In this document: one piece after another, positions 2,413-10,801 of the stretch | Numbering within the stretch: position 1 is the first letter of the stretch | Layout: the number at the start of each line of letters is the position of its first letter | Assembly: GCA_021775655.1 (NCBI GenBank) | Contig: JAJFHK010000314.1 | Location: 1 to 10,801, forward strand | Reading direction: 5' to 3' | Origin: Filomicrobium sp. | GTDB lineage: Bacteria > Pseudomonadota > Alphaproteobacteria > Rhizobiales > Hyphomicrobiaceae | Length of the DNA stretch: 10,801 bases | Program-made: the position numbers and the translations under genes | Notes under the pieces: generated by a model | Told to the model about the DNA's origin: nothing | Database searches by the model: none | The model's input: only the letters and a program-made list of their open reading frames with translations

Positions 2413-3447
2413 TCAAACTCCCCCAGTCTGCGCCTTGCGCTGCTTCTCGAGAGAGGCAAGGCTGGTTTTCAAGCGCTCATCGGCCAATTCCAGAATACGG
2501 ACAACCTTGAGACCTTTTTCCCCATCCATTTTCGAAGTCTCCTTGCCTGCAATGACACCTGCAAAGTGACCCGCGACACCAGCAAGCGCTTCCGTGCGCG
2601 AAACGCGTGGCGAATAAATGTCACCGATCCGGTATTCGGGTATGATTGCGCTGCGCTGATCCTCGGGCTGGAAATCGATACCGTGATCATAGATCTTGAT
2701 TTTCTGATCCTGATCGAGGTCGTCCCAGATCAGCATTTTGCTCGTGCCGCCAATCGTAAAACGCCGTACCTTTACCGGCGACATCCAACTCATATTGAAG
2801 TGGGCTACGGCATTGTTGGCAAGATGCAACGTCAGGAAGACCATATCTGGACGCTTGGGATCGACGTGGCAGTATCCAGAAACCTCAAGGTCCACGATTT
2901 CGTCGTCGACCAAATAGTCGATGATGGATAGGTCGTGGGGTGCGAGATCCCACAGGCAATTCACATCCGGCTGAAACAATCCGAGATTGACCCGCATGGA
3001 GTCGAAATAGCAAATTCGACCGAGATCGCCGGACCGCGCGATCTTGGCAATGGACTGCACGGCTCCGGTAAACAAGAACGTATGATCGACCATCAGCACG
3101 CGGTCGGCCTTCTTGGCACGCGCGACGAGATCTTCAGCTTCGGCTGATGTCCGGGCAATGGGCTTCTCAACAAGAACGTGCTTGCCATGGTCGAGGGCGA
3201 GTGCGGCAAGCTGGTGATGTGTCGCCACGGGGGTCGCTATGACGACCGCGTCCACGTCCGGCAGCTTCATTAGTTCTGAAGGATCTTCGAAGGTCGCAAT
3301 GGCGGGATAAGTTGCCTTAACTTTTTCGCGAGCGGCCTCGCGCAGATCGGCAACCCCAACGACGTCGATCCCCGGTGTCGCGGCAAAGTTGCGAACGAGG
3401 TTCGGTCCCCAATAGCCATAGCCTGCAACACCAATCCGCAGCGTCAT
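2413..3447 (-). CDS. Gfo/Idh/MocA-family NAD(P)-dependent sugar dehydrogenase
   Basis: A 344-residue oxidoreductase of normal family length. The N-terminal Rossmann domain has GVAGYGYWGPN (6-16) for NAD binding and the conserved EKP motif (94-96), whose K95 is the usual catalytic lysine. The C-terminal alpha/beta domain carries WDLAPHDLS (166-174), with D167 and H171 in the usual catalytic-pair region. Enzymes of this kind oxidise sugar hydroxyls. In nucleotide-sugar loci they commonly make a 3-keto sugar for a DegT aminotransferase (WbpB/WlbA role), and partners for that are present here. However, the WDLxPHD form is not the WbpB signature I know best, so the exact substrate is inferred from context only. 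ATG at 3447 has an excellent GAGGAGG ribosome-binding site. The stop leaves one base before the GTG of the downstream SDR gene, so the two are probably translationally coupled. Confidence 0.92.
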   Translation of the reverse strand: MTLRIGVAGYGYWGPNLVRNFAATPGIDVVGVADLREAAREKVKATYPAIATFEDPSELMKLPDVDAVVIATPVATHHQLAALALDHGKHVLVEKPIARTSAEAEDLVARAKKADRVLMVDHTFLFTGAVQSIAKIARSGDLGRICYFDSMRVNLGLFQPDVNCLWDLAPHDLSIIDYLVDDEIVDLEVSGYCHVDPKRPDMVFLTLHLANNAVAHFNMSWMSPVKVRRFTIGGTSKMLIWDDLDQDQKIKIYDHGIDFQPEDQRSAIIPEYRIGDIYSPRVSRTEALAGVAGHFAGVIAGKETSKMDGEKGLKVVRILELADERLKTSLASLEKQRKAQTGGV

Positions 3448-3477: not shown

Positions 3478-4419
3478 TCATCCGACAGGGGCGTTTCGGC
3501 CGCCTGCGTATCCCGCCAGGAGACCCAGCGCCGCGACGACAAGATAATTCAATCCATAAAGTACGCCACATGCAACGAAGCCTGCTTCACCGACACCACC
3601 TGCCTCGCTTGCAAGCCAGGCAAAGGTCGCTTCCCGGACGCCAATTCCTTGCAGCGAAATCGGCAACATCCGAGCGAGTTCGGTTACGACCGCGATCAAT
3701 GCAATGGGTGCGAGAGCAAGGCCCACACCGGTGTCGCTACTGATTGAATGTGCGCTGACCGCCCATACGGCGACGGATGCGAAACTCAAGGCGAGGGCGG
3801 CGGTGTTCGTTTGCCAGCCATTTGCTGTGAGGCCGGTAATTGCTGCTCTGGCGAAGCGGCCAGCCGCGCCATCCCAGCGCGATGGGATTCTAATTCGTGA
3901 AAGCAGCGCCAAGCCGATGATTATCCCTATGGCTAAGGTGAGGAAAATCGATGCGCTTGCCTCGAACACCGGCGACTTGGCCGCTCCGCTGCTTAACAAA
4001 TAGGCCACGAGGAATACAGCCGATTGACCCCAAATTCCCATGATCCGTTCTAACAGAACAAGTCCAGCGCTTCGCATGCGTCCGCCTCTGGACTCGTCGC
4101 TCTTGATAACTCGATAAGCGTCGGCGCCGACAGCTCCCGGTGTCACCAGGTTGTAGACGGAGGCTTGGCAAGCGATCAGCATGTCACTGAAGCGCGGTGA
4201 CTCATTGCGGTCGGCAATCAGCAGTGCCCAGCGCAGCGAGGTGCAGAGGTGTGTAGCAAGAATAAAGAGGAGACAAACGAGCATCGAGGAGAAGGAGATT
4301 CGTTGCAGAGCCGCAATCAGTCCATTCCAATCGAGTAGGTACAAGGCGACCGCGACGACGAGAGCAGTTCCCGTCAATCCAAGCAAGAGCCTCAACATCG
4401 AGCGTCCCGGAGCTGCCAC
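3478..4419 (-). CDS. Flippase-like multi-pass membrane protein (lysylphosphatidylglycerol synthase TM-domain family)
   Basis: A 313-residue, strongly hydrophobic protein with about seven or eight predicted transmembrane segments: roughly residues 9-29, 45-68, 131-149, 156-174, 205-223, 233-249, 256-275 and 283-303. Three family motifs are visible. NLVTPGAVGADAYRV (90-104) corresponds to the usual N-PG-xGGD-YR, SAGLVLLERIMG (117-128) to the VLxER segment, and LPISLQGIGVREATF (252-266) to the LPIS-GxGxREG signature. There is no C-terminal catalytic domain of MprF type. Such stand-alone proteins are often found in glycan loci and are suspected of lipid or lipid-linked-sugar translocation, but function is unproven for most. 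The start taken is GTG at 4419, one base after the sulfotransferase stop; an in-frame ATG at 4398 (residue 8) is nearly as good. A 30-nt gap follows before the dehydrogenase gene. Confidence 0.85.
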   Translation of the reverse strand: MAAPGRSMLRLLLGLTGTALVVAVALYLLDWNGLIAALQRISFSSMLVCLLFILATHLCTSLRWALLIADRNESPRFSDMLIACQASVYNLVTPGAVGADAYRVIKSDESRGGRMRSAGLVLLERIMGIWGQSAVFLVAYLLSSGAAKSPVFEASASIFLTLAIGIIIGLALLSRIRIPSRWDGAAGRFARAAITGLTANGWQTNTAALALSFASVAVWAVSAHSISSDTGVGLALAPIALIAVVTELARMLPISLQGIGVREATFAWLASEAGGVGEAGFVACGVLYGLNYLVVAALGLLAGYAGGRNAPVG

Positions 4420-4420
4420 C

Positions 4421-5230
4421 TCAGAAGCCCCATCGCCCTACGTCGACATGGCAAAGTTCGGCAAGCAGCTGCATGTCGGGTTGCAAGCGGTCGCGGAGCC
4501 AGCGGTCAGTTTGTGCAGAGAGCGTCAATTTGTAATCTTCAAGGGCGTTGACCGCACCCGTTTCAAGTTTCGACCATGGTAGCGGATCGAGTTTCATGAA
4601 CGCTTGCAGATCTGCAATGAACACATCTGGCTCATTCATTGCTTCCTCCAGCATGATTACCTTGATGCGCTCCTTACCGATCGCGTCGATCCAGGCACTG
4701 ATGTGCGAGCCGTATTTACTTCGGATCAGGTAGTCAAATGGACGTGCATATTCGAGGCCGGGAGGCAGCGGGCTTGGACGTTTCTCCTGAAGTTTCACAG
4801 CGGTTTCGAAATCCAGCGTCTCAAGTTGATTCCGCGTTGTGCGGAGCCAATTCGAATAGGCCCTTTCAATGGGATCGCGCAAAATGAAAATGATGGATGA
4901 CTGCGGCAGCAAACGGCTGAATCGCTGGCGGGCATCTTCGTTCTCGAGGTAATAGCTGGTCTTCTCGACAGTGACGACGTTGTCGGGCACCTGGGCGAAG
5001 AGTTGATCATAGGCTGCTAGAAATCCTTCATCGCCTTCTCGATGCGGCACCATCAGCACTTTGCGTTCGGGAATAAATGGCTTTGCGACGAATACGCCGG
5101 GATGCTTATCGAGGATTTCGCACAGCAAGGTCGTGCCTGAGCGCGGTGCCCCACCGATCACGAAGTCCGGCAGGCGGCAGGCTGCGCCGTGACGTGAAAA
5201 GAGCGCTTGTCCCGTCTGAGCTGCATTCAT
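4421..5230 (-). CDS. PAPS-dependent sulfotransferase-domain protein
   Basis: A 269-residue cytoplasmic-type sulfotransferase that would move a sulfuryl group from 3'-phosphoadenylyl sulfate to a hydroxyl or amine acceptor. The 5'-phosphosulfate loop GGAPRSGTTLL is at residues 26-36, a VEKTSYYL segment (88-95) follows, and the 3'-phosphate-binding motif LRDPIERAYSNW is at 117-128 with R118 and S126 as the expected contacts. Further on, KYGSHISAWIDAIG and IMLEEAM fit the family's C-terminal helix-strand pattern. The ATG at 5230 overlaps the preceding stop as ATGA and starts close to the first core strand. An in-frame upstream GTG at 5275 would lie inside the preceding gene and is less likely. 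The context of aminotransferases, a sugar dehydrogenase and a flippase-like protein suggests a glycan or glycolipid acceptor, which is inference. There is no signal peptide, so sulfation would precede export. Confidence 0.9.
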   Translation of the reverse strand: MNAAQTGQALFSRHGAACRLPDFVIGGAPRSGTTLLCEILDKHPGVFVAKPFIPERKVLMVPHREGDEGFLAAYDQLFAQVPDNVVTVEKTSYYLENEDARQRFSRLLPQSSIIFILRDPIERAYSNWLRTTRNQLETLDFETAVKLQEKRPSPLPPGLEYARPFDYLIRSKYGSHISAWIDAIGKERIKVIMLEEAMNEPDVFIADLQAFMKLDPLPWSKLETGAVNALEDYKLTLSAQTDRWLRDRLQPDMQLLAELCHVDVGRWGF

Positions 5231-6696
5231 GATGCGTCGACCTGCGGTGCGATCTGCCCAGCCCAAGGGCACCATTCCAATGGGGAATCTGGAGAAAGAA
5301 AATTGTCGACACGGATCTGTTCGACCTCACCGAGGAACATAGAATGGGTGCCGAGCCGGACCTCGTCGACGACCCTGCAATCGAAATGCACTGGGAGTTC
5401 GGCGAAGCAGAACCCGTTTTCGAGCTCGATAGGTGTGAGGCCGGAGCACTTCGCCTTCAATGGATCGTCACGGAGTGAAATGTTGCCGAGGTAGGCGATC
5501 GCATCCAGAACCGTTTGGTCATAGATCGGAACGCCACAACCGAAGCGGCCTGCCGAGCGTATGACATCGAGCGAAGCACGAGGCGCGTACCGGGCATTAA
5601 TGCGGCCGTAGGAAACGCAGATGGCGACGGTGAATGGATGGCGAGCCATGATCGATGTAGACCCGCAAGGGAAGGCTGCAACCTTATTTCCGTGACGCGC
5701 GGTGATGATGCCGACGGATGATGGAAAGTAACATGGCCAGCGCGCCTTGTCGTTTTCGACCTCGGTCTCGCCCGGCTCAAGCGGCTTCACGTCCAATACG
5801 GAAAAATCGCCAGACGGCGTGCCTTCGAAGGCGATAGTCTCTGGGGATGGAAAGACGTAATCGGAACGATAGGATTTCTGATAGCCGACGCGTGCGAGCT
5901 GATCCTTGCGATGCTGGAGGGTTGCTGGTTTTTTATCTGACGGTGTCGCGAAATTTCCATCCTGCCGGCGCCAAACAGGAAGGCTTCGCCAATGGATCGG
6001 CTTGTCGCCTGAGGCAATGTCGCGGCGTAGCGAGATCGTTTCAATCTCGAACATGTAGATCCGGTGGCTGCCACAATCGACCCAGGCCGCTTCGTTGACT
6101 GGGACTCCGTCGAAGTCCGGTCCCGGTTTCACGAAGCGACCCTCATAGATCAGGTAGGCACCATCGATGACCGGGGCAGGGCTGCGCAGTGCGGGCCGGT
6201 AGCGATTTGCAGCCTTGGATAGCCTCTCCGGCATGTCACTTGCTTCGGTCGAGGCGATGGCATTCATGACTTGCTTGAGTTCGTCGCCAGGGAACAGGAA
6301 CTGGACTGCAACGGTTCCTGTCTCCTCGACAAGCGACATGAATTCCGAGCGTTCGTAGTGTCGTGTGGAAAGCGGAGTCCGGCAGAACGACAGCGCGAGC
6401 GTGTAGGGGAAGCGATTGACGATCGCCGCCCCGACGACCTTTTCGATTGCCGATTTCTGGCCGTCACTGGTTGTCGCAATTGACAATGCAGATGGGAAAA
6501 AAGCCGGCCACCGGCTGTCGTCAGAAACCTCAACTGTGCTTTCGGGCAGGTTCCGCACGCGCCAGTTTCCGTCATCGCTCGTTGACCACTGGGGGCCGTC
6601 CAGTGCACCGGCGTACGGCCACGCGTAGCTCGTGCGCATCCTGTCTGATGGAAGACCGGGGACGGGTTTATATATTGCCGATGCTCCGTCAGCCAT
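5227..6696 (-). CDS. Protein with two tandem flavin-reductase-like domains
   Basis: A 489-residue protein, about twice the length of a single-domain flavin reductase, built from two related halves. Half 1 (about 20-245) has RWPAFFPSALSIAT (62-75), NRFPYTLA (94-101), RHYERSEF (112-119) and GSHRIYMFEIE (209-219). Half 2 (about 272-489) has RWPCYFPSSVGIIT (319-332), ARHPFTVA (351-358), ARYAPRAS (368-375) and GTHSMFLGEVE (449-459). The order and spacing match, so this is an internal duplication. Half 2 looks like a canonical flavin reductase (HFDCRVVDEVRLGTH); half 1 is more diverged. Known relatives bind FMN or FAD and reduce it with NAD(P)H for a partner oxygenase, but some are other flavoproteins. 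The start chosen is ATG at 6696, with GGGAG about 10 nt upstream; it overlaps the preceding gene by 8 nt. Its stop overlaps the sulfotransferase start as ATGA. No partner oxygenase is visible, so its role in a sugar operon is unknown. Confidence 0.85.
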   Translation of the reverse strand: MADGASAIYKPVPGLPSDRMRTSYAWPYAGALDGPQWSTSDDGNWRVRNLPESTVEVSDDSRWPAFFPSALSIATTSDGQKSAIEKVVGAAIVNRFPYTLALSFCRTPLSTRHYERSEFMSLVEETGTVAVQFLFPGDELKQVMNAIASTEASDMPERLSKAANRYRPALRSPAPVIDGAYLIYEGRFVKPGPDFDGVPVNEAAWVDCGSHRIYMFEIETISLRRDIASGDKPIHWRSLPVWRRQDGNFATPSDKKPATLQHRKDQLARVGYQKSYRSDYVFPSPETIAFEGTPSGDFSVLDVKPLEPGETEVENDKARWPCYFPSSVGIITARHGNKVAAFPCGSTSIMARHPFTVAICVSYGRINARYAPRASLDVIRSAGRFGCGVPIYDQTVLDAIAYLGNISLRDDPLKAKCSGLTPIELENGFCFAELPVHFDCRVVDEVRLGTHSMFLGEVEQIRVDNFLSPDSPLEWCPWAGQIAPQVDAS

Positions 6697-7810
6697 TGGC
6701 GGTGAACTCCCGGATCTCACTTACAACTTGGTTCACCTGTGCGTCGGTCATTCCTATGAAGAGGGGTAGCGAAAGACCCTCGTTCGCCCAGCGGTCTGAA
6801 ACCGGGTAGCTGTCGACATCGAAGTTGTAGGTTTTCATGCACGGCTGGCGATGCAGCGGGACTGGGTAGTGCAGACCCGTCTGAATACTGCGTGTGTTGA
6901 GATATGCCTGCAGCTCATCTCGCATCGGTGTTCGGATTACAAAGAGGTGCCAGACGTGGTCGCCATTGACGATCTGCGGCACCTCGATGGGCAGACCGGA
7001 CAATCCTTCATGATAGAGCTGACCAAGTCGCTTGCGTTCTGCGATCCAGCTATCCATCAGCCGAAGCTTGTGGCGCAAGACGACGGCTTGGAGACCGTCG
7101 AGCCTGTAGTTGTAGCCAGTCTCTTCGGATATGTAGCGCTCGCGCTGGGCGTGATTGCGCAGGCATCGCAAGCGATCGGCGATCTTTTCGTCCTGCGTGA
7201 TCACGAGGCCTGCCTCGCCTGCGGCGCCGAGGTTTTTGCCGGGATAGAAGCTCACACATCCGCATTCCCCAAACGTACCGGTCATCCGGCCATCGAAGCG
7301 TGCGCCGATTGATTGGGCCGCATCCTCGATGACGACGAGCCCGTGTTCGTCGGCGAATTGCTTTACCGCATTGAGGTTTGTCGGTTGACCGTAGATGTGG
7401 ACCGGCATGATGGCCTTGGTGCGGTCGGTTATACGCTTGCGGGCATCATCGATATCGATGGTGCCGGTTTCTGCGTCGACATCGCAAAGGACCGGTGTGG
7501 CGTTTGCGTAGATTGCTCCCCAGGCGGTGGCGATAAATGTGTGTGCGGGCAGAAGGATCTCGTCGCCTGGGCCGATGTCGTTGGCTACGACCGCCAGGTG
7601 CAGTGCAGATGTGCCCGAGTTGACGCCTACAGCATGGCGGCTTCCCATCCATTCGGCGATTTCTTGCTCGAATGCGGCTGCGTGCGGGCCGAGGCAGAAC
7701 GCGCTCTTTTGGAAAACGTCATCAAAGTCCTTCTTAACGCCCTGCTCGATCTGTCGCCACTGCACGAGCAAATCATTGAAAGGCACTTCGTTGGCCTCGG
7801 TCGTCGACAT
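6689..7810 (-). CDS. DegT/DnrJ/EryC1/StrS-family PLP-dependent sugar aminotransferase (first gene of the operon)
   Basis: A 373-residue aminotransferase with the classical family pattern: NSGTSALHLA (64-73) binding the PLP phosphate, LPAHTFIATAW (87-97), MPVHIYGQP (135-143), IEDAAQSIGA (161-170) with the ring-stacking Asp, and SFYPGKNLGAAGEAG (187-201), whose K192 should form the PLP Schiff base. The FYPGKNLGA form is seen in 3-amino-sugar aminotransferases such as QdtB/FdtB as well as in WbpE-like enzymes, so a C3 role is plausible but not proven. ATG at 7810 is preferred over an in-frame GTG at 7816 because an AGGA sequence lies about ten bases before the ATG and too close to the GTG. The gene opens the seven-gene operon. 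A long spacer with repeats lies upstream. Together with the Gfo/Idh/MocA dehydrogenase and the nearby acetyltransferase it could form an oxidation-amination-acetylation module. Confidence 0.93.
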   Translation of the reverse strand: MSTTEANEVPFNDLLVQWRQIEQGVKKDFDDVFQKSAFCLGPHAAAFEQEIAEWMGSRHAVGVNSGTSALHLAVVANDIGPGDEILLPAHTFIATAWGAIYANATPVLCDVDAETGTIDIDDARKRITDRTKAIMPVHIYGQPTNLNAVKQFADEHGLVVIEDAAQSIGARFDGRMTGTFGECGCVSFYPGKNLGAAGEAGLVITQDEKIADRLRCLRNHAQRERYISEETGYNYRLDGLQAVVLRHKLRLMDSWIAERKRLGQLYHEGLSGLPIEVPQIVNGDHVWHLFVIRTPMRDELQAYLNTRSIQTGLHYPVPLHRQPCMKTYNFDVDSYPVSDRWANEGLSLPLFIGMTDAQVNQVVSEIREFTANG

Positions 7811-7831
7811 AGACACCAGTTCCTGACCCCT

Positions 7832-8126: not shown

Positions 8127-8609
8127 TCAGTCGCTTTGCCGATTTCGGGTATCCCCGATTACGCGCGCAGGATTTCCGGCGACTATCGCGTAGTCGGGAA
8201 CATCCTTGGTGACGACGGCACCTGCACCGACAAGTGCGCCTTCACCGATGGTGACCGGAAGAATGGTAGCGCCACTCCCGATCGAGGCGCGTTTGCCGAC
8301 ATACGTTTTGGATAAGGTCCATCCCTCGCTGCCGAGCAAACGCCCGGAATCGTCGGTTGCGCGCGGATGGAGATCATTTGTGAACATCACGCCGTGGCCG
8401 ACGAAAACCTCATCGCTGATCGTGATGCCTTCGCAAATGAAGCAATGGGATTGGATTTTGCAGCGCTGGCCAATTGCCGCACCGGCCTGAATCTCTACGA
8501 AAGGTCCGATGCGGGTGTCATCTCCGATCGCACAGCCATAGACGTTTACGAGGTCGGGGTGCGAGAAGCGAACGCCTTGGCCGAGCTTTGCGGATTCATT
8601 GATTGGCAC
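8127..8609 (-). CDS. Left-handed beta-helix (hexapeptide-repeat) acyltransferase, WbpD/WlbB-like sugar N-acetyltransferase
   Basis: A 160-residue protein made almost wholly of hexapeptide repeats with small or aliphatic residues every sixth position: IGDDTRIGPFVEI (28-40), IGQRCKI (46-52), ISDEVFVGHGVMF (64-76), VGKRASIGSGATIL (104-117) and VTIGEGALVGAGAVVTKDV (119-137). It ends in the common AIVAGNPARVIG (141-152) cap. The loop FTNDLHPRA (76-84) is placed as in acetyltransferases that act on UDP-2-acetamido-3-amino-sugars; they form trimers and use acetyl-CoA. The start is GTG at 8609, with the strong sequence AGGGAGGG seven bases upstream and no suitable in-frame ATG. The neighbouring Gfo/Idh/MocA dehydrogenase and DegT aminotransferase supply the two steps that normally precede such an acetylation. 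It could also be a general sugar O-acetyltransferase. It is read in the same direction as the seven-gene operon but is separated from it by a long spacer. Confidence 0.88.
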   Translation of the reverse strand: MPINESAKLGQGVRFSHPDLVNVYGCAIGDDTRIGPFVEIQAGAAIGQRCKIQSHCFICEGITISDEVFVGHGVMFTNDLHPRATDDSGRLLGSEGWTLSKTYVGKRASIGSGATILPVTIGEGALVGAGAVVTKDVPDYAIVAGNPARVIGDTRNRQSD

Positions 8610-8952: not shown

Positions 8953-9927
8953 ATGAAACGGTTGCGGGCAGAACGGCCTCGTCTGGTTATCGTGACGCCC
9001 GTATATAATGAGGCCGAGAATCTAGGCGCATTTATCGAGTCTGTGCGGGAGATTTTGCTGTCGCGAACTGACCTCGACGCTGAAGTTCTATTTGTCGACG
9101 ATGGTTCGGCTGACGCAAGCTGGGAGCTTATCGAGGAATCTGCCGAAGCCGATCCCCGGCTGAGAGGCGTGAAGCTTTCGCGCAACTTCAGCGCGCATGT
9201 GGCTCTTGCTGCAGGATTCGATGCAGTTGGCCCGGATGCCGACATTGTTGCTACAATCGCGTGCGACTTGCAGGACCCGCCCGAGACGGTACTTGCATTC
9301 GTCGAATCCTGGCGCGAGGGAAACGATATCGTCTGGGGTGAGCGCAAGACGCGCCGGGATTCGGGCTGGAAGCGGGCGGCGTCAGGTCTACTTGAGTCAG
9401 TACTGCGCAGGTTTGCAATGCCGAGGGGATCGAAGTTCCGGACGGGCAGCTTTCTGCTCATGGACCGGCGCGTACTTGAATGCTTTCTCCAATATCGAGA
9501 GCACAGCCGCGTGACTTTCGCACTCGTCGCTTGGACGGGCTTCAAGCAGGACGTTGTGGGTTACGAGCGCAAACCAAGACTGAAAGGACGATCAGGTTGG
9601 ACTTTCCGACGAATGGCAAATACCGCTTATGATGTCTTTATCGGATTCTCCGACGTGCCCGCGAAATTCCTGACGTTTACGGGAACCAGCATGTTTGCGC
9701 TCAGCGTGCTAGCACTCATTTATCTCGTCACGGTCTGGTTCATACAAGATGTGCAGCCGGGCTGGACCGGTATTATGGCAACGCTGACTTTCTTCTTCGG
9801 CCTCGTGTTCATGATGCTCGGTATCATTGTCGAATACCTTTACCGCATCTTCGTTGAGACCAAGGCTCGTCCCCTCTACTTCGTGGCCGAACGAACCGAG
9901 CCTCGAATTGGCGAGCGCAAGAGATGA
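8953..9927 (+). CDS. GtrB/ArnC/DPM1-like family 2 glycosyltransferase (polyprenyl-phosphate sugar transferase)
   Basis: A 324-residue membrane-attached glycosyltransferase. The GT-A domain has VIVTPVYNEAENL (12-24), FVDDGSADAS (47-56), the LSRNFSAHVALAAGFD segment (75-90) typical of the dolichol-phosphate-mannose-synthase-like branch, and CDLQDPPE (104-111), which holds the metal/nucleotide-binding Asp residues. Two transmembrane helices follow at about 243-263 and 273-295, as in GtrB and ArnC. Such enzymes move a sugar from a nucleotide donor to a polyprenyl phosphate on the cytoplasmic face of the inner membrane. ATG at 8953 has CAGGA about nine bases upstream and begins just before the first core strand. 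The stop overlaps the ATG of the deacetylase gene as ATGA, so the two proteins are probably made together and work in sequence. The sugar is unknown. Confidence 0.93.
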   Translation: MKRLRAERPRLVIVTPVYNEAENLGAFIESVREILLSRTDLDAEVLFVDDGSADASWELIEESAEADPRLRGVKLSRNFSAHVALAAGFDAVGPDADIVATIACDLQDPPETVLAFVESWREGNDIVWGERKTRRDSGWKRAASGLLESVLRRFAMPRGSKFRTGSFLLMDRRVLECFLQYREHSRVTFALVAWTGFKQDVVGYERKPRLKGRSGWTFRRMANTAYDVFIGFSDVPAKFLTFTGTSMFALSVLALIYLVTVWFIQDVQPGWTGIMATLTFFFGLVFMMLGIIVEYLYRIFVETKARPLYFVAERTEPRIGERKR

Positions 9928-10801
9928 CTGCCGAGACACTTGTCGATACTGTTTTGGATTCTGCGCTCCTTCCCGATCCCGCGGCCTGGGCAACGGATGC
10001 AAGGGCAAAGCTTCCATCCGGCCTTGCCCGGCTCGTCGCCGACGGTGCATTCCGGAATCCGGATGCTGAAACGAGCGCCTATGCGATTCAATGTGCACAG
10101 GACTTGCGCATGCGTTCAGCTTATGTGCGGGCAGCGCCTACCGCCACGAAACTCCCGGTCAGCTACCGATCCGTACCTGGACCGCTGCGGCGCCTGATCG
10201 GCAAAGCTATTGGCCGAGTGCAGCGCAGGCGTGAGTCGAAGTGGGCCGAGTTTCCCGGTTGGCCGCTCGACTTGTCAGCGGACCTGGCGGCGGATCTTGC
10301 TGGAGCCGTGAACGCCAACCTTGATCGGCCGACACCGGTTATCGTCAGTCACGATATCGATAGCGATGAGGGCCTTGAAAATCTCGTCTCCATGTTCCTG
10401 CCAATGGAGGAGGAGGTAGGTGCGCGCTCAGCCAACTATGTGGTGCCGTTCGCTTGGGCGCTCGATCATGGCCTGATCCGCGAGACACTTGATCGCGGGC
10501 ACGAGATCGGTGTCCATGGCTATGACCACTCTGGCCGGACGCCATTTGCCGGTGCCGATGAACGTGCCGAGCGAGTGAATCGAGGGCACGATTTTGGTGT
10601 TGGTTATGGCGCTGTCGGTTATCGCGCACCATCGCTGATGCGGACCGAGGCGTTGATCCAGGATTTGACACCCCTGTATCTCTACGACAGCAGCATCCCG
10701 ACTTCGGGTGGCCCATTCCCAGTGCCCAATAACGGATGTGCGTCAGCACGGCCCTGGCGAATCCATGACAAGTTGTGGGAACTTCCGCTGTCACTGCCGC
10801 G
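9924..10801 (+). CDS. NodB-type polysaccharide deacetylase family protein (3' end outside window)
   Basis: The frame opens at ATG 9924, overlapping the glycosyltransferase stop as ATGA, and remains open to the window edge (292 full codons). The NodB-fold motifs of carbohydrate esterase family 4 are clear. SHDIDSDEG (142-150) replaces the usual TFDDG and supplies the catalytic and metal Asp (D144, D146), HGYDHSG (198-204) gives the HxxxH metal ligands H198 and H202, and GYRAPS (232-237) is motif 3. The end of the visible part, WELPLSLP, fits the next conserved strand. About 140 residues precede motif 1; they are rich in Ala, Asp and Arg, with a basic stretch at about 104-111, and have no signal peptide or obvious membrane segment. 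The enzyme would remove an N- or O-acyl group from a sugar. Coupling to a polyprenyl-phosphate glycosyltransferase suggests a lipid-linked sugar substrate, by analogy with ArnD and NaxD. The HDID form is less common than FDD. Confidence 0.88.
   Translation, partial: MTAETLVDTVLDSALLPDPAAWATDARAKLPSGLARLVADGAFRNPDAETSAYAIQCAQDLRMRSAYVRAAPTATKLPVSYRSVPGPLRRLIGKAIGRVQRRRESKWAEFPGWPLDLSADLAADLAGAVNANLDRPTPVIVSHDIDSDEGLENLVSMFLPMEEEVGARSANYVVPFAWALDHGLIRETLDRGHEIGVHGYDHSGRTPFAGADERAERVNRGHDFGVGYGAVGYRAPSLMRTEALIQDLTPLYLYDSSIPTSGGPFPVPNNGCASARPWRIHDKLWELPLSLP

Follow-up and report, generated by a model that had tools for sequence, protein, structure and literature searches.

A tandem flavin-reductase-like protein family linked to an amino-sugar gene cassette, with a proposed role in sugar tailoring

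Short-chain flavin reductases of the PF01613 type have been described as single-domain homodimers, and CobR and the 2-nitrobenzoate nitroreductase NbaA as using reduced flavin mononucleotide (FMN) on their own substrates (PMC13327496). Here we describe a tandem flavin-reductase-like protein, labelled FR2, which is encoded at positions 5227-6696 of the minus strand in a 10,801-nucleotide stretch of Filomicrobium sp. DNA (contig JAJFHK010000314.1 of assembly GCA_021775655.1), the whole of which is termed the window; its gene runs from an ATG at 6696 to a TGA stop at 5229-5227 and specifies 489 amino acids. With the single-domain PF01613 proteins PheA2, HpaC, BorF and SgcE6, FR2 has in common the split barrel, predicted for both of its halves, the GxH motif, a conserved proline and a basic flavin-loop residue; however, it fuses two diverged domains, carries the motif RWPxxFPS and an arginine-rich insertion, and lies in a glycan locus where no oxygenase partner of the searched kinds is seen. 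Its best sequence relatives among solved structures, reached via half 2, are FMN-binding proteins of the flavoredoxin/PH0856 type (2d5m, 2r6v), from which FR2 differs in that its half 1 has no such match, in being fused and in its genomic setting. CobR and NbaA possess the same fold, and own-substrate use of reduced FMN is also proposed for FR2 below, but their substrates, a corrin and a nitroaromatic compound, differ, and neither is fused.

As regards the genes around FR2, the closest described systems are the Wlb/Qdt pathways to 3-amino sugars and the Arn/perosamine pathways to 4-amino sugars, which employ Gfo/Idh enzymes, DegT aminotransferases of the two types, hexapeptide acyltransferases and short-chain dehydrogenases/reductases (SDRs) of the kinds found here. 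The FR2 cassette, in contrast, combines both sets, and to our knowledge the known pathways contain no flavin reductase. We favour, with moderate confidence, the reading that FR2 is a fused oxidoreductase of FMN type (possibly of flavin adenine dinucleotide type) and that it contributes an optional tailoring step to a cassette whose product is a nucleotide-linked diamino or triamino sugar.

Two related halves in one chain

The internal duplication of FR2 is beyond chance: half 1 (residues 46-250; positions 5947-6561, minus strand) and half 2 (residues 292-480; 5257-5823, minus strand) align by BLASTP with E 5e-11 (24% over 217 columns), and a profile-profile comparison gives a probability of 99 and E 9e-18 over 170 columns. 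Pfam's PF01613 model (Flavin_Reduct) matches the whole protein in two stretches and over the curated cut-off (7.5e-23, 81.8 bits). Taken alone, half 2 scores 58.6 bits in the window, 62.5 in L003 and 51.8 in L018 (L numbers denote the genome loci compared), the cut-off being 27; for half 1 the window value, 26.7 bits, falls slightly short of that cut-off, L003 gives 34.0 and L018 20.3, and several other members exceed it, with a maximum of 43.2. Structure models of half 1 and of the entire FR2 chain resemble flavin reductases of solved structure, and both halves are accordingly modelled as the split-barrel flavin-reductase fold. The relatedness of the halves, which a preliminary description had noticed from the letters alone, is thus borne out, and the case that it had named as refuting, only one half fitting the flavin fold, was not what profiles and models gave. 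UbiD-type decarboxylases, which also appear among the Foldseek and VIA matches at lower Z, were taken to reflect the shared barrel only. FR2 has two PF01613 domains per chain, as do the listed relatives judging by their length, and we infer an internal pseudo-dimer. Many family members are named 'RutF' in one source, although FR2 of the window reaches 17.6 bits against the RutF model TIGR03615, whose equivalog cut-off is 254.75.

The motif RWPxxFPS occurs in the window protein at residues 62-69 and again at 319-326. Of the flavin-contact residues, the loop (CGST, 344-347) and the GxH motif (GTH, 449-451) are present in half 2, which resembles flavoredoxin-type FMN proteins; half 1 keeps GSH (209-211), and its flavin loop reads VVGA instead of CGST. 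Twelve FR2 members were compared with nine ordinary flavin reductases, the latter picked by similarity to half 2. W63/W320, P64/P321, R95/R352 and R112/R369 are invariant in both halves of the 12 members and have a counterpart in none of the nine, whereas counterparts are found for R116/R373 in one, for F67/F324 and P68/P325 in two and for R62/R319 in three. Common ground with the ordinary enzymes is provided by P97/P354 and G209/G449 (9/9), H211/H451 (8/9) and the basic R158/K414 (8/9). The family motifs probably predate the duplication, because they are present in both halves. Each half also holds many invariant residues across 115 FR2 sequences, and, averaged over columns, the identity among 25 sequences amounts to 66% in half 1 and 72% in half 2. 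With invariant residues of its own and family motifs in common with half 2, half 1 gives no support to the earlier suggestion that it may have become merely structural, and this similar conservation likewise leaves the idea of a decayed domain unsupported.

A protein search with FR2 returned 507 relatives at E<=1e-3 among 8000 scored candidates, of which the best 120 are 428-514 residues long and 45-65% identical to the window protein; the fused form is a distinct, conserved and unnamed family. Searches with half 2 alone and half 1 alone gave 69 shorter matches among 271 candidates and 22 among 403, respectively, some labelled partial or lying on very short contigs, and the half profiles cross-match, 73 of the 91 short proteins having matched both. 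Ten short matches were read: P0121, P0126 and P0135 carry the whole of half 2 without half 1, and the tail of the half 1 piece P0200 departs from the family sequence. Since the contigs of P0135 and P0200 are of equal length and the P0200 tail leaves the family sequence, both probably derive from a single gene that was split. No free-standing half was established among the 69 and 22 short matches, although one may exist. In L027 (9983-11387) the coding sequence of FR2 is divided between two reading frames, by sequencing error or decay. No publication on the FR2 family was found in the literature, an absence from print that is weakly supported, as several queries returned nothing.

The amino-sugar cassette and the place of FR2 in it

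The species collection yielded 25 FR2 loci from several phyla, which with the window make 26. By record titles, the hosts comprise Cyanobacteria, Alpha-, Beta- and Gammaproteobacteria, Desulfobacteraceae, Bacteroidota, Rokuibacteriota, Phycisphaerales, Opitutia and WOR-3, the Methylibium locus being one that we take to be betaproteobacterial. Among 398 Pseudomonadota genomes, the window's own FR2 was the sole full-length match, and 12 others had matches of 20-26 bits on half 2. Carriage by plasmids or phages was rejected, as FR2 had no match in plasmids and ten pattern matches in viral contigs included no relative.

Linkage was assessed with profiles of five partner families, namely DegT, hexapeptide acyltransferase, SDR, Gfo/Idh and the glycosyltransferase family GT2. 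At least three of them are present in 24 of the 26 FR2 loci and all five in 12, compared with at least three in 0/20 control loci of ordinary PF01613 genes from the same genomes (DegT in 2/20), the controls having been picked by hand from ordinary PF01613 matches, one to three per genome, with several cut by contig ends (3.6-20 kb). The link to glycan genes claimed in the preliminary description is hence seen well beyond the window, and the fused form was not found to be widespread outside glycan loci, 24 of 26 loci being of this one kind. In a DegT tree, clade A (the type beside FR2 in the window) and clade B are distinguished, and 15/26 FR2 loci hold one of each; FR2 itself adjoins different genes in different loci, including those for DegT A, DegT B, SDR and the hexapeptide protein. 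With close relatives dropped, which omits L003, L005, L006, L007 and L022 from the distance correlation, co-inheritance with FR2 was found for Gfo/Idh (r=0.42, p 0.003), GT2 (0.53, p 0.0005) and DegT A (0.31, p 0.02); L027 was left out of this correlation and of the steps labelled A3 and A4.

The cassette consists of a hexapeptide acyltransferase, a Gfo/Idh dehydrogenase, aminotransferase A, an SDR and aminotransferase B, all encoded on the minus strand in the window. The hexapeptide N-acyltransferase-like protein (8127-8609) is of the NeuD/WxcM/QdtC type, and DegT A (6689-7816) has QdtB, a 3-amino-sugar enzyme, among its best three solved relatives, which suggests a 3-amino type. For the nicotinamide adenine dinucleotide (NAD)-dependent Gfo/Idh dehydrogenase (2413-3447) and the SDR of 4,6-dehydratase/epimerase type (1404-2459), the best NCBIfam models are UDP-GlcNAc 3-dehydrogenase and LegB, both below cut-off; DegT B (237-1388) has perosamine synthetase and ArnB, 4-amino-sugar enzymes, as nearest solved relatives, which suggest a 4-amino type. 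Judging from these resemblances, the product is likely a nucleotide-linked diamino or triamino sugar.

Further genes recur in some of the loci. In L008, L015, L016 and L020 (e.g. L016:5772-7792), genes for a carbon-nitrogen hydrolase and for a WbpG-like amidotransferase occur together, hinting at a sugar amidine or amide. Six FR2 loci (L003:14588-17614, L005, L006, L007, L013 and L019) encode a large protein whose C-terminal domain is dimethylformamidase-like, as do nine cassette loci without FR2, and radical SAM proteins with a B12-binding domain occur in glycan loci (L014:8149-9864, L105:11882-13378). In L101, L102 and L104 (e.g. L101:10514-12031), where the cassette lacks FR2, a Wzx-type flippase gene stands between the Gfo/Idh and hexapeptide genes.

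The cassette is also found without FR2. In 195 cyanobacterial genomes, full-length FR2 occurs in two, both already among the known loci, and an orthologous Gfo/Idh in 14 (above 550 bits, the next lower match being 390), 12 of which lack FR2. Those 12 genomes hold 14 FR2-less loci, and 13 of these carry the hexapeptide, Gfo/Idh, DegT A, SDR and DegT B genes, L089 being without DegT A. Directly after DegT A, the place that FR2 takes in 5/5 cyanobacterial FR2 loci, the 13 have a second hexapeptide gene in seven cases (L076-L079, L084-L086), a gene for a protein with metallo-beta-lactamase (MBL), SCP2-like and Rieske domains (MBL-SCP2-Rieske) in three (L081-L083), and in three more (L080, L087, L088) a gene from a family that has no match in Pfam, after which comes one of formyltransferase type. 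Among the 398 Pseudomonadota genomes, Gfo/Idh was detected at E<=1e-120 in 19, the window's included; FR2 is present in 0/18 of the other loci, and 12/18 carry both aminotransferase types and the SDR, some of the rest being cut by contig ends. The amino-sugar cassette thus exists without FR2; an obligate step in making the core sugar was therefore rejected as its role, and an optional tailoring gene is the better reading. The earlier view that FR2 belongs to the sugar pathway is in keeping with the steady linkage, with FR2 then as an optional part.

The cyanobacterial loci L004, with FR2, and L081, with the MBL-SCP2-Rieske gene, have nine genes in common, in the same order and with 67-89% protein identity. 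Their DNA aligns at 82% to just before FR2, breaks over FR2 and resumes at 79% from the next gene; it breaks again at a methyltransferase/formyltransferase gene, which makes a second differing gene, and resumes at 83%. In the MBL-SCP2-Rieske protein an SCP2-like domain lies between the MBL fold and the Rieske domain, and what we take to be HxHxDH and Rieske-type motifs are present; it reaches none of the listed NCBIfam cut-offs, and its matches to SxtT (E 1.4e-5) and CmlA (E 0.006) are weak. By domain type it is CMAH- or CmlA-like, CMAH having a Rieske domain. Its domains differ from those of FR2, and the likeness between the two lies in their same place in the same cassette; its gene is found in 0/26 FR2 loci. 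Going by gene position, the two proteins may share one function. A family of 346-347-residue proteins without Pfam match is also encoded next to FR2 or to the MBL-SCP2-Rieske gene (L081:13627-14667; L004:11404-12447, the latter also without NCBIfam match).

Proposed function and alternatives

We propose that FR2 represents two subunits of the usual flavin-reductase homodimer fused into an asymmetric pseudo-dimer. Half 2, with its CGST loop, flavoredoxin-like character and GTH, would provide a canonical flavin site reduced by NAD(P)H, and half 1, with its EKVVGA loop, GSH and invariant arginine and histidine, would complete the pseudo-dimer and could offer an altered second site to flavin or to the nucleotide sugar. 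Four pairs of invariant arginines (R62/R319, R95/R352, R112/R369 and R116/R373) may grip the phosphates of either ligand. FR2 itself would then act on the sugar, a reduction that needs no oxygen being the most likely chemistry, instead of handing free reduced flavin to an oxygenase. Such direct action is favoured by the steady cassette linkage, the tailoring slot and the fusion itself, and also by the hosts of L009 and L017, which belong to the Desulfobacteraceae, a strictly anaerobic lineage. It is further favoured by related proteins that reduce their own substrates (PMC13327496).

Several observations weigh against this reading. Evidence for the slot is confined to cyanobacteria; the FR2 loci themselves served to build the partner profiles, which favours matches there; and two of the 26 loci, L009 on a 5-kb contig and L011 of 21 kb, hold fewer than three partner families. 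Co-inheritance is uneven, being weak and not significant for DegT B (r=0.20), SDR (0.19) and the hexapeptide protein (0.07), a pattern to be expected if the cassette exchanges parts. A PhyH-type dioxygenase gene is present in L005 and, by similarity, in L013, and the oxygenase-type domains of the exchange partner in L081-L083 would suggest, by analogy, an oxygen-dependent chemistry for FR2 too. Oxygenases are also encoded elsewhere in the FR2 genomes, PF08028 in 24/25 and PF00296 in 12/25 among the matches listed.

A more ambitious form of the proposal, which we advance only tentatively, is that FR2 opens a new class among the sugar-tailoring flavoenzymes, in which a fused and asymmetric split-barrel pseudo-dimer works directly on a nucleotide-linked amino sugar and stands in for the oxygenase-type MBL-SCP2-Rieske enzyme at the same step, possibly without oxygen. 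Alternatively, FR2 may make the same overall change as that enzyme, such as N-acyl or amine oxidation, by a different chemistry. The exchange at one place between the otherwise homologous L004 and L081, and the absence of the Rieske-type gene from all 26 FR2 loci, speak for this, and CMAH, an MBL-fold enzyme, hydroxylates an N-acetyl group of a nucleotide sugar (PMC4819959). However, the Rieske-type gene was seen in only three loci, the slot also takes unrelated genes or none and may be merely permissive, and L004 and L081 have a further difference in gene content. As we also know of no split-barrel flavin enzyme that hydroxylates, this alternative seems doubtful.

It is unlikely that FR2 is a flavin reductase whose reduced flavin serves a monooxygenase from another part of the genome, for instance in sugar N-oxidation or hydroxylation, although many PF01613 proteins are reductase partners of two-component monooxygenases (PMC13327496), and the oxygenases elsewhere in the FR2 genomes would offer candidates. 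The preliminary description saw no oxygenase near the gene, and a Pfam scan of the ten window genes agrees, revealing no oxygenase domain. Within 50 kb of FR2 on its contig, no gene of PF08028 or of the luciferase type (PF00296), the oxygenase families searched in the genomes, is among the matches listed for the 25 genomes, which argues for direct action; by the same matches, 13/25 genomes lack PF00296 and one, G407 (a 2.1-Mb assembly), lacks both, genomes that may be incomplete. The anaerobic lineage of the L009 and L017 hosts counts against such a supplier as well, and a steady tie to one cassette is nothing that a source of diffusible flavin would require.

That FR2 is non-catalytic, a scaffold or a flavin-binding regulator of the aminotransferase, would suit the tight DegT overlap in the window, the DegT gene that FR2 adjoins in several loci and the lack of the CGST loop in half 1, but the invariant polar residues in both halves, the GxH kept in both and the variety of genes that FR2 borders make it improbable. 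Least credible is a passenger travelling with glycan islands, which would explain the absence of FR2 from 12/14 cyanobacterial and 18/19 sampled Pseudomonadota genomes with the cassette Gfo/Idh, but not its conservation across phyla or its steady company of cassette families.

If FR2 is indeed a tailoring flavoenzyme of this cassette, a nucleotide-sugar step would be added to the uses of the flavin-reductase fold, fusion of a homodimer would be shown to let one site diverge, and the polysaccharide amino sugar would carry a further redox decoration. The closely related L004/L081 pair makes the question testable by comparing two polysaccharides.

Gene order in the window

The gene span, motif positions and junctions given in the preliminary description were all confirmed on re-reading of the sequence: FR2 overlaps the DegT A gene by 8 nt (6689-6696), and an ATGA at 5230-5227 joins it to the gene of a PF13469 sulfotransferase (4421-5230, minus strand). 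It had been asked whether the sulfotransferase always sits beside FR2; the window type was found in three of the 26 FR2 loci (window, L021 and L022), and in L109, where FR2 is absent, the neighbour of DegT A is a similar sulfotransferase, so a constant link between the two was rejected. The neighbourhood does exist outside the window, as in fragment P0189, on a contig 26,346 bases long, part of FR2 and a window-type sulfotransferase share one continuous frame. Next to the sulfotransferase gene lies that of an LPG_synthase_TM/flippase-like membrane protein (3478-4419, minus strand). No RNA feature reached Rfam gathering scores in the window, and no tRNA was found there. In the opposite direction to the operon, a PgfS/ArnC-like GT2 glycosyltransferase gene (8953-9927, plus strand) overlaps by 4 nt with a polysaccharide-deacetylase-like gene, the pair occupying 8953-10799, and both genes are also present upstream of FR2 in L021 and L022.
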